Origin: Pagrus major
Taxonomy: Eukaryota > Chordata > Actinopteri > Spariformes > Sparidae
NCBI RefSeq assembly: GCF_040436345.1
Contig: NC_133218.1
Location: forward strand, 23,669,070 to 23,733,069
DNA: 64,000 bases
Direction: 5' to 3'
Numbering within the stretch: the first letter of the stretch is position 1; every line of letters begins with the position of its first letter. Below the pieces are notes generated by a model. The model was given only the letters and a program-made list of their open reading frames with translations. It was not told the origin of the DNA and ran no database searches. Positions 4,827 through 31,736 of this stretch are shown piece after piece. The position numbers and the translations under genes are program-made.

Positions 4827-5186
4827 ATGTTTTCTTTGAGGCACTTGGAAACATTGATCCTGATACTTTTCCTCATCAGTCTAAACATAGAGGCTAAACC
4901 ATTAAGGTAAATCTGGTAAAAAAAAAAAAGTGAAAAAAATAACAAACTTAATAATTCACTTGCCTGTGTTGACAGTGGTATTTTCTATTTCCACAGAAAG
5001 AGAAGCATTAGTGAGGTGCAGCTCATGCACAACGTTCGGGAACACAAACAAGTGGGAGACAGACAGGACTGGCTTCAGGAAAAGTTAAAGGACATTATTG
5101 TTCCCAGCGCCAAACCACAACACGGACAATCACAGAATATTAACAATATTTTCCCAAATGATGTGTTTGGATCGAACACGTGGTAG
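4827..5186 (+). CDS. pth1: parathyroid hormone precursor (pth1 type)
   Basis: Two coding exons, 4827-4906 and 4997-5186, joined across a 90-bp GT-AG intron, give an 89-residue prepro-hormone. The N-terminus is a hydrophobic signal peptide (about residues 1-22, core LILILFLISL). A short pro-segment ends in the dibasic KR cleavage site at 28-29, and the mature peptide starts at S30. It carries the PTH receptor-binding signature SxSEVQLMHN followed by a basic amphipathic helix ending DWLQEKLKDI. The mature peptide is 60 residues, shorter than the 84 of mammals. PTH is secreted and acts on class B receptors in calcium and phosphate control. The intron inside the pro-segment and the neighbouring BTBD10 support PTH1 over PTHrP. 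Whether it is the teleost a or b copy cannot be decided here; PTH4 is a less likely alternative. Confidence 0.9.
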
Positions 5187-7939: not shown

Positions 7940-15062
<7,123 letters not shown>

Positions 15063-17049: not shown

Positions 17050-20000
17050 TTATACCTCTGGATTTCCAACAGTTCCTCTGCAATCATCTGCCCAATCCTC
17101 CCAGCACCTGTCCTCGTTCCAGTCTCTGTTTGGACACCCGGCCTCCCTTCACCTGCATCAAGAAGAGGCTGTAACCTGTATTATCTGCTGCTTTGCTTTG
17201 TTGGTTCAGAATCAACACAAGAAGGAAGGGGCTTTGTCACCTGGCATCAGTGCAGCGCCCATTGTGTGTTGGGAGGCATTGGACAGATGATAACTGCTCT
17301 CAGGTGGGTTGTCTGGAGTACTGCTTTGTCATAAAAAAGTAAAAGAAAAGGGGGAGAGGTATGTGGGATATCTCAACAGAGAGGATACAATGTAATAACA
17401 CATAAAACAATAGATCTATATGGTAAGTCTGGGTAGCAATCTAATGCTTAATAATAAACAGGACAGATGTCATACAATAGGATTATAAAACATGATGTAA
17501 CATTTTCAGCTATAAAGGATAATTTGTTCTTACGTGACTACAGTGTTGGTAGAGATAATACACTCCACCTCTTTGGTCCAAGGGTTCATGAAACTGAACC
17601 ACTTCTCACTGTGATGAATGAGCCATCTTTTATTTTGAACTTGTAGCAGTTGGTATTGATCTTCTCTCTCATCTGTAGCGCTTACAGCAAACAGCAGCAG
17701 AGGGGGACAAGGACAGGTAATGGATGAACTGTCCACAGGTGAGATGAATTACAATGCTATTTTCACACATTGCTCCATTCTGCTACTGAAACTGTAACGC
17801 CACCGTACATTAATCAATATAATCACTGTACATGGACAGCAGAGTCCTATATATATACTGTAGATATTTGCAAGAACAGTTAATCAGGTGTGGTGTTGTC
17901 CCTTCTGTTAGATGCATACATTACCTTTCCTGTGACATTCTGATAAATGAGTAATATCATCTTCATGAAAATATTCGTAAAAAGAAGTACCCAGCAGCTC
18001 ATGAGGTAAATAAGCCAAAACGGCGGTGGCCCTTAGAAAGAAAAGAAAAAACACGTATTCACATGGAATTTTATCTTTAATATATTTCAGTACTAATTAA
18101 AGATCTAATCTGGAAAATATGTCCAGGGCAGCATATATTCAGATTAACCGACAGCTGTTGCTCTTTGTAGAGATACTTCAAGATCAAGAAATTACTATCT
18201 GAAAACTGATTGATAAGATATGTTTGTACATTAACATTAAATTCAAGTTTATTCAAATATACTGTTGTAAAAACAGGCTTTGTGGTAAGAGTTCTGACCT
18301 GTGATCCACAAAGACAAACTTTCTGTCAATAGCATGACGTGAAACAAACTCCATGGGCTTGAGCTTGACGTGATTCTGCACTGGCTGAGAAACAGTGCGG
18401 GGATGCAACCGACCAACAGCCACCAGACAGCTGAAGTTACATCCATCATTGTCCAGGTTATTATTTTCATACAGATCCACACTGCGGTGGGGGACCAACT
18501 TTTTAAGTATCCAGTGCTGTGAAAGGTGCAGAAGGCCTTACGATCAGCTGTGAATAAAGGAAACGAGGTGACAGATGATGATTTTTACAGTTTTGCAGAC
18601 TGGAGATGAGTCATGTTTACACAGATGATTAACATTTTGTCTCTGAAAAGCAGGTTCTGCTGTCAACCATTACACAGAAGTTAATCCCAAACCTGTGGTC
18701 TTTTCAGATGAGGCGCTAGAACACCTAATACAGTCTAATACAGAGGGTAGGTCGACCATCGTGGATAAAGAATGAAAAATATATCTATTGTAATTGTTAA
18801 TTCAGTTTGTGTGATTTATTGTTGCATGTAGGCACTAATAATGCCAGCTCATCGAAAAAGCTGTTAATTTTGTCCCTGCGTCTCTTCTCTATCTGACTGT
18901 GACTCCTCCTGTATGAGAACAAAAGCAGCTTTGGTCACCTGGCTTTCTTATTGCAGCCTTGATGGTCGTCACCGACCCTGTTGAAATATTGATGTATGAG
19001 GAGCTGTACAAGCCATAATTCATTCTGGCCTTCACGCATGACAGTATATGTCTACATACACACATAGACTCTCATATATTTACACATTTTGTATATATAA
19101 TCTGTACTCTGAGAAAGTATTGGGGGAAATGAGTACTCAGATCACTTTTTATGTTACATATTAGGTGATCCAAGTAATCTGTTATTTAGTTATGTTTTCA
19201 AATTAGTTTGTTAGTGTAAGAATTTCACCGTATTTCCCCATTCCTTTTGTTGCCACAAGAAAGAAAATCCCTTTGCACTTTTCCTGTTTCTCTCCCACCT
19301 CTTGATGTTTTCAAATTCACAGAATTTTTTAAACAAATAAATGCTAGCCAAGTGCTTTTTATGACTGTTTCTTACTCATTACCATGACAGCTGTAGCCCA
19401 TAAAAAATCTGTATACATGAACGACGACTTTACCTTGATTTTTATCAATGACAGAATTAATTATGGCATGTACGGCCTTACATAATAAAGTACGTTAGCC
19501 CATGCAAATAATTATGACAAAGATGATTAAGTGACACTTTTAACACATTCAGCTCAACAGTAAAGCATTGTTTTAATCCACATGTCACACAAAATAAAAT
19601 GAAAAAGTGGTGGTATTTTAGTACCAAACTCTATGACTAAAACCTAGCTTCTTTGTGTGTGTCTTACAGATGTAAGACTATTTGTAAGACTATTTATAAG
19701 AATACAATATTACAATTAACTAGAAAAGTGTACTAAACATAGTATTCTGGTGTCTAACTAACTAATGAGCAGTCTGGCCATAAGCAATGTTTAGTTTCTA
19801 AGCACATTTATCTTAATTCTTCAATGCACAGTAATTCTTCTATATTGCATTGCAGCTTTTTAGTGTTTGAAGGATACAAGATCTGTAAATAAATATCTGT
19901 GAAAAATCCAAATCCAATACTGTGAGGTTGAAGGTGAAGTTAAGATATATTATCTAGACAATTTTGTAAATTGACAGAAGGGGAACAAAGTGTCACATGT

Positions 20001-20160
20001 GAGCAGCTTTCAGGTGTGATGCAGAGTACGACTGCGTCCGTAGACTCACTTACATGGTGTAGCCTTCTTTTCTTTTGAGAGAGAAGGTCTTAGTGGAGCT
20101 GCTGATCAGGTTTGTTGATCGTGAGGATGTGAACCTGCTCATCTTAGATGAAACGTCCAT
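17050..20160 (-). pseudogene. bmal1: BMAL1 (ARNTL) pseudogene
   Basis: BMAL1 is the bHLH-PAS partner of CLOCK. Recognisable exons in order: 20160-20054 (start MDVSSKMSRF, like MDISSTISDF); about 18908-18790 (bHLH, SQIEKRRRDKINSFFDEL); 18547-18299 (RKAFCTFHSTGYLKSW, then DGCNFSCLVAVGRLH and FVSRHAID); 18031-17925 (PAS-B, AYLPHELLGTSFYEYFHED); 17680-17534 (EKINTNCYKFKIKDGSFIT, then WFSFMNPWTKEVE); and 3' pieces at 17300-17050 (NASQHTMGAAL; GTRTGAGRIGRMIAEE). Donors and acceptors around 17534-18547 are still canonical. Lesions: an extra base just before the SQIEKRR run; a TAA at 18797-18799 in helix 2; almost all PAS-A missing, with only a stop-ridden scrap near 18640-18700; a frameshift near 18475-18490; a 4-base loss near 17600. 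Position and convergence with btbd10 match human ARNTL. Sequence favours BMAL1 over BMAL2 (GCNFSCLVAVGRLH). Confidence 0.9.
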
Positions 20161-30916: not shown

Positions 30917-31067
30917 TACAGTGGAGACTGAAATAGGATCAAAACAGCAAGGATGTACCAAGTGTTGCAGTGCAAGGGCTATTTAAACTGTGGCTGTAGC
31001 TGTTTTAGTTTATATTTTGGCAGATATGCAGCTATCTGAGCATGCTGATGATCCAGGAGCTACAGTC
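29330..31067. other. gene-free region
   Basis: No gene recognised. The part at 29560-29940 is unique-looking and of even composition, and could be conserved noncoding DNA. A (CA)n tract lies at 30869-30914. Confidence 0.45.
30869..30914. repeat. (CA)n microsatellite
   Basis: About 22 CA units with one AAAC interruption. Confidence 0.95.
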
Positions 31068-31188
31068 ACAATGTACGGAAGCCCTAAAGGGCCATGCATT
31101 CATATTTCCTCCGTTTTCCCATGATAACAAGTTAATTTCATTTGTTTTCTGGAGATCTTGAGTTATTATCTCGAAATAACAACTGCCG

Positions 31189-31450
31189 TTTTCCCGAGAT
31201 AATGGGATAATTTTCTCGAGATCTCGAGATAACGAAATTTTGTTTTCCCGAGATAACGGGATAATTTTCTCAAGATCTCGAGTTAACGAAATTTTGTTTT
31301 CCCGAGATAACGGGATAATTTTCTCGAGATCTCGAGATAACGAAATTTTGTTTTCCCGAGATAACGGGATAATTTTCTCGAGATCTCGAGTTAACGAAAT
31401 TTTGTTTTCCCGAGATAACGATATAATTAATTTGAGATCTCGAGATAATG
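31189..31450. repeat. 54-bp repeats in the left arm of the transposon
   Basis: The phrase TTTTCCCGAGATAA recurs at about 31189, 31243, 31297, 31351 and 31405, a strict 54-bp period. Each unit contains the palindrome CTCGAGATCTCGAG (CTCAAGATCTCGAG in one unit). Units alternate between CGAGATAACG and CGAGTTAACG, so the higher-order period is 108 bp. Because 54 is a multiple of three, frames stay open on both strands; these are not proteins. Confidence 0.9.
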
Positions 31451-31465
31451 ACTGTGATATGATAG

Positions 31466-31736
31466 GCCTGAGATTATGGAGATGCCCGGGACCTCGTAAC
31501 TGGTCAGCTATGTAGTTAACGACAACATCAGGCTCACTTAGATTGCGCCACCGATATATCTGAGGCCTTGCTAACCGTCTTTTTAGATTACGCACACTAA
31601 TGTGTATATTATCTGTTATAGCAAGGCATAATGCTATTTCAGCCTGTGTCAGGCCTTGATTGAAAAGATATGTGACGCGGTGATCAATATACTCCTGCTC
31701 CTCTGACATTGCTACACTGAATGATGTTTCCTGCAA
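31466..31736 (-). pseudogene. N-terminal fragment of an IS3EU-type transposase
   Basis: About 90 codons from a Met at 31736 (or 31709). The segment contains EYIDHRVTYLFNQGLTQAEI and IHISVRNLKRRLA, a helix-turn-helix-like N-terminus typical of integrase-core transposases abundant in fish and other animals. After about residue 90 the frame runs into the inverted-repeat arm and out of the element, so the apparent 234-codon frame is artificial. The DDE catalytic core is missing. Confidence 0.7.

Follow-up and report, generated by a model that had tools for sequence, protein, structure and literature searches.

Different teleosts reportedly kept different bmal duplicates, and Wang is said to have found in 2009 that fugu, tetraodon, medaka and stickleback carry bmal1a without bmal1b, as judged by presence or absence in early assemblies. 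More recent surveys treat bmal1b under the name arntl1b. A 2025 preprint on Perciformes detected no orthologue of arntl1b in Sander lucioperca or Sparus aurata with either TOGA or Exonerate, and presumes that all the perciforms it studied lack the gene, as other Acanthomorpha do (PMC12154703). Two further papers describe arntl1b as absent in the notothenioids examined (PMC10298351) and list it in pike and salmonids (PMC8674837).

Here we describe the remains of this gene in Pagrus major. An earlier sequence-only reading of the locus had placed the loss in this lineage. Published work does not make it special to that lineage, since arntl1b is reported absent in perciforms (PMC12154703) and notothenioids (PMC10298351). 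The loss of bmal1b is already known, while its remains, an inverted exon within them, and a bound set by berycimorph fishes are mainly useful detail. For the same gene, the preprint detected nothing in Sander lucioperca or Sparus aurata, whereas the present genome holds readable remains. Berycimorphs keep an intact bmal1b, so that within Acanthomorpha the loss falls after their split from percomorphs. Likewise, the notothenioid passages describe absence where remains are found here. In the portions of the open-licence PMC literature that were consulted, we met no description of the relic, of its inversion, or of the bound given by berycimorphs.

We consider it almost certain that the locus is an in-place bmal1b (arntl1b) pseudogene, with the bmal1 role probably resting on bmal1a elsewhere in the genome. 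Like other in-place genome-duplication pseudogenes, it is syntenic and intron-bearing, carries many disablements, and has its other copy elsewhere. The inversion of a single exon is its odd feature and, to our knowledge, an unusual lesion among pseudogenes of this kind.

Genomic setting and surviving exons

The window, meaning the whole 64,000-nucleotide stretch analysed, is C4:23669070-23733069 in a 785.9 Mb genome of 25 contigs. It contains pth (+), btbd10 (+), the bmal1 relic (-), rassf10 (-), and tead1 (-) in that order (Table 1). Gene order and orientations match those of human 11p15, as the sequence-only reading had proposed. The rassf10 of the window shared 95% identity with Sparus aurata and at most 83% with other named fishes among the 120 matches listed; Sparidae fall within Percomorphaceae (NCBI taxonomy). 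Rfam gave no match in the window. Elsewhere in the window, a 234-aa ORF at 31032-31736 (-) contains a 54-base tandem array (31188-31448; 4.8 copies, 93% matches). By eye its N-terminal part is transposon-like, with all Pfam matches below cut-off.

Exons of bmal1a were located at C8:22897554-22915018, as separate exon matches along nearly the whole of percomorph Bmal1a. A second btbd10 lies tail to tail with it (C8:22923121-22934310), and a second rassf10 is present at C8:27.18 Mb. With these three genes on C8, C4 and C8 form a pair of partner blocks in which bmal1a has the relic as its counterpart. Both the expected order of its flanks and this C8 block with bmal1a and btbd10 place the relic at the original position of the gene. 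A genome search with Bmal1 found no intact bmal1b elsewhere. These data agree with the earlier proposal that one bmal1 duplicate was lost in place with another elsewhere, as bmal1a lies on C8, the relic lies on C4, and two bmal2-like loci are also present. The latter, at C8:6884765-6885037 and C14:7679743-7680123, are both present in the genome and were labelled from their lower identity.

Exons of the relic were numbered after the coding exons of bmal1a from the same genome. The window was searched by tblastn with a human BMAL1 sequence that, over residues 61-489, is nearly identical to the BMAL1 chains in the PDB. This revealed an ordered series of exons on the minus strand (best E 3e-27), recovering the N-terminal, bHLH, PAS-B, and GAGRIGQMIAEE exons that the sequence-only reading had placed there. 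Exon 13 and the inverted exon 6 had escaped that reading. A genome-wide HLH search, blind to the finding, matched the relic bHLH above the curated cut-off (38.2 bits; C4:23687872-23687979, equal to window 18803-18910), covering profile positions 2-36 of 53 only. Pfam analysis identified the same truncated domain (PF00010 positions 2-36 of 53, 39.8 bits). No PAS domain exceeded the Pfam cut-off in the relic pieces scanned, with exon 11 reaching PAS_11 at E 0.003 (17.9 bits vs a cut-off of 25). Splice signals were readable at exons 10, 11, 12, and 14. Introns with splice signals separate the surviving exons, unlike the intron-less structure of a processed pseudogene, and the earlier claim that the relic is not a processed copy was upheld.

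Table 1. Features of the bmal1 relic and its neighbours, in window coordinates
Feature	Position	Strand	Evidence or remark
pth exon piece	4995-5096	+	sequence match in window
btbd10	~11371-15062	+	first and last piece seen
bmal1 relic	17056-20160	-	between btbd10 and rassf10
rassf10	42211-40925	-	single open frame
tead1 exons	~62052-49038	-	sequence match in window
Exon 2 remnant (N-terminus)	20054-20160	-	tblastn, spliced alignment; donor GTAAGT kept
Exon 4 weak scrap, ~30 bases from exon 5	18938-18967	-	part of bHLH tblastn match; too short alone
Exon 5 head (basic region, helix 1, loop; ends inside helix 2)	18800-18908	-	tblastn, HLH profile
TAA codon at or past break	18797-18799	-	base-level reading
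Exon 6 (first PAS-A exon), inverted, 3' end approximate	18654-18739	+	39.8 bits profile match
Exon 10, +2 shift near 18480-18490	18299-18547	-	tblastn, spliced alignment
Exon 11 (PAS-B)	17925-18031	-	tblastn, spliced alignment; PAS_11 below cut-off
Exon 12 (PAS-B), 4-base deletion near 17601	17534-17680	-	tblastn, spliced alignment
Exon 13, 1b-type, edges approximate	~17241-17323	-	spliced alignment, paralogue scoring
Exon 14 (GAGRIGQMIAEE), 12-base deletion	17056-17152	-	tblastn, spliced alignment

Inversion, missing exons and frame lesions

Profiles of the missing exons were built from 42 intact proteins and scored across the window. Exon 6 was detected on the plus strand at 39.8 bits, compared with 21.7 bits for the runner-up on either strand. 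At the nucleotide level, 47 of 74 aligned bases were identical to bmal1a exon 6 (score 53.5, compared with at most 27.5 in 100 shuffles), and the acceptor AG had turned along with the exon. When the 251 bases around it were searched against the genome, with common words skipped, their sole match was themselves. A single match means that the inverted piece is the gene's own exon 6 rather than a duplicate of it. The exon is also worn, retaining 14 of 24 residues as in bmal1a. This wear, like that of the other exons, favours an inversion of long standing over a misjoin in the assembly. No cause of the inversion was found, and a repeat was considered and rejected: short inverted matches near the edges were at most 31 bases long and at most 93% complementary, and the stretch matches the genome once.

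The match to exon 5 ends at ~18800, inside helix 2, where the rearranged stretch starts. The sequence-only reading had reported a stop in helix 2; the codon is indeed TAA but, because the exon 5 match stops at this point, it lies at or past the rearrangement break and is not a plain point mutation. The same reading had described PAS-A as almost gone. This is correct for the later PAS-A exons, which gave no signal, but the first PAS-A exon is present in inverted form.

For the exon 5 tail, exons 3 and 4 joined, and exons 7, 8, 9, 15, 16, and 17, the best profile scores in the window were 17-23 bits, equal to the runner-up level. Neither the later PAS-A exons nor the transactivation C-terminus left a trace in the window by this approach. 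Short spliced-alignment pieces assigned to missing exons (e.g. 16825-16784) were at chance level and were dropped. Within the surviving exons, exon 10 has a net shift of +2, exon 12 lacks 4 bases, and exon 14 lacks 12 bases, the first two accounting for the frame breaks previously noted near 18475-18490 and 17600. The locus therefore shows the multiple lesions of a pseudogene: an inverted exon, a cut exon 5, exons without signal, and shifts of +2 and -4.

It is very improbable that the gene is whole and that these lesions arose as errors of sequencing or assembly. In keeping with such errors, the splice sites are partly intact. However, 33 of 160 codons that encode the same residue in all 42 intact proteins are changed, and these are spread across the surviving exons. 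In addition, the inverted exon 6 is itself worn, and several exons have no signal anywhere in the window.

The in-place bmal1b pseudogene probably formed as follows, in an order of lesions that is our reconstruction. The gene, a bmal1 duplicate from the teleost genome duplication, would have been released from selection after percomorphs split from beryciform and trachichthyiform fishes. A rearrangement would have cut the bHLH exon inside helix 2 and flipped the next exon, the first of PAS-A, and the other PAS-A exons may have been lost along with this event or after it. Small indels would have broken the frame in exons 10 and 12, and the C-terminal exons would have been lost. The resulting locus is predicted to be unable to yield a bHLH-PAS partner of CLOCK, with the bmal1 role probably carried by bmal1a on another contig.

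Assignment of the relic to bmal1b

Fish Bmal1a and Bmal1b proteins were compared with the window by tblastn, a check suggested in the sequence-only reading. The relic was matched, but the order of paralogues was ambiguous. By summed bits over 25 queries, Centroberyx affinis 1b ranked first (500.2), followed by Aplochiton (479.8), Chanos 1b (476.3), Chaetodon 1a (475.9), and Centroberyx gerrardi 1b (474.3), placing another 1b below a 1a. When the relic was placed in a tree with 42 intact proteins, it joined the three berycimorph bmal1b sequences with support of 99/94, on a long branch. An AU test did not reject its placement with bmal1a (p 0.38 for euteleost 1a; p 0.225 for percomorph 1a). As both the AU test and the tblastn bits are ambiguous, it is mainly synteny and exon 13 that identify the relic as bmal1b.

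Exon 13 differs between bmal1a and bmal1b. Of the 42 rows, all but four contained the anchor motif, and these 38 proteins were scored against the relic. The three berycimorph 1b proteins were the top three of the 38 (Centroberyx affinis 54, Diretmus 47, and Centroberyx gerrardi 47, with the next at 43), identifying the exon as 1b-type.

Linkage of bmal1b and rassf10 in other fishes was read from contigs of equal size, which were taken as the same contig. On this basis rassf10 accompanies bmal1b in two species, Centroberyx gerrardi (38,969,015) and Diretmus argenteus (56,394,213), as expected of a bmal1b block. In a third, Aplochiton (45,010,363), it accompanies a bmal1 without a paralogue label. 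In Chaetodon auriga, the one species seen for the other paralogue, the longest contig of the bmal1a cluster measured 29,774,467 vs 33,648,271 for the rassf10 contig.

Decay, timing and meaning of the loss

None of the 33 changes at the 160 invariant codons is a stop. In a neutral simulation (150 runs per step), this number of changes corresponded to ~0.10 changes per site. The observed number was reached in 9% of runs at 0.08, while at 0.15 fewer than 1% were at or below it. First and second positions compared with bmal1a gave 0.106 changes per site (95% limits 0.073-0.148). These counts omit exons too worn to find and may be low. No stops occurred in the 283 codons of the in-frame aligned pieces (without exon 13), an outcome expected about one quarter of the time at this level of decay. 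Overall, decay of the relic is modest. Conservative changes made up 14 of 33, compared with 31% expected (p 0.11), and 23 of 51 in a looser set (p 0.024). The excess is slight, as if some changes predate the death of the gene.

These features bear on whether the surviving PAS-B exons are still useful, as a short protein or as RNA. The absence of stops in the pieces counted, the mild conservative excess, and the splice sites kept in exons 10-12 and 14 would fit such a use. We nevertheless regard it as very improbable, since both exon 10 and exon 12 carry a frameshift, a promoter-proximal exon 1 could not be identified, and decay fits the neutral simulation. A mild conservative excess is also expected from weak selection before gene death.

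Third positions of the relic differed from those of bmal1a in 147 of 270 codons. Outside exon 12, differences were found in 130 of 222 codons, compared with 103 of 236 for the functional btbd10 pair (p 0.0015), a pattern that reads as duplication-old divergence plus extra decay. Exon 12, which shares 127 of 148 bases with bmal1a, is closer to it than exons 10 and 11 together (third-position differences 17 of 48 vs 75 of 114, p 0.0005). Either old gene conversion or rate variation could account for this closeness. Conversion from bmal1a into exon 12 was not retained as a finding, its third positions being no different from the btbd10 control (p 0.34). The closeness of exon 12 would also suit derivation from bmal1a, as a processed copy or through recent duplication of a fragment. 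Such an origin is scarcely conceivable given the introns and splice sites, the conserved block on both sides, and overall third-position differences at least as great as those of the old btbd10 pair.

Intact bmal1b was identified in two Centroberyx species (Beryciformes) and in Diretmus (Trachichthyiformes); both orders belong to Berycimorphaceae. Because these fishes keep the gene, bmal1b of the present lineage was lost after the percomorph/berycimorph split. Among the best 120 matches to Centroberyx bmal1b, all eight percomorph-named rows were labelled 1a; any percomorph bmal1b could be hidden within the 90% clusters, in unnamed rows, or beyond rank 120. Diretmus argenteus bmal1b has 86% identity to that of Centroberyx affinis and a longer branch (0.1 vs 0.01), which may hint at relaxed selection on a still intact copy.

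The teleost duplication is ~250-320 My old, and the btbd10 duplicates differ at 45 of 89 fourfold sites. Together these imply a slow clock, and a 'recent' death, as ~0.10 changes per site had suggested, was withdrawn on this account. We used four rates, from 1.2 to 4 x 10^-9 per site and year, in part derived from this duplication age. With 0.114 changes per site and its confidence limits, rates of 4 to 1.2 x 10^-9 gave a loss age of about 19-137 My. Both a single loss at the percomorph base and a later loss are compatible with this range. More tentatively, and rather doubtfully, bmal1b might have remained under selection into the percomorph radiation and then died late and separately in several lineages. 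If so, relics with different lesions would be expected in other families, and these could be used to time how the fish clock was stripped step by step.

What befell the relic is ordinary for a duplicate gene, apart from one odd lesion, and it yields a useful timing bound. Where surveys of perciforms and other acanthomorphs record arntl1b simply as missing, it offers lesions that can be compared between species, and such a comparison would separate one shared loss from several. Intact berycimorph bmal1b narrows the 'Acanthomorpha' bound on the loss. In this fish, bmal1a and the bmal2-like genes presumably cover the function of bmal1b. As bmal1a and two bmal2-like loci remain, the effect of the loss on its clock is probably small.
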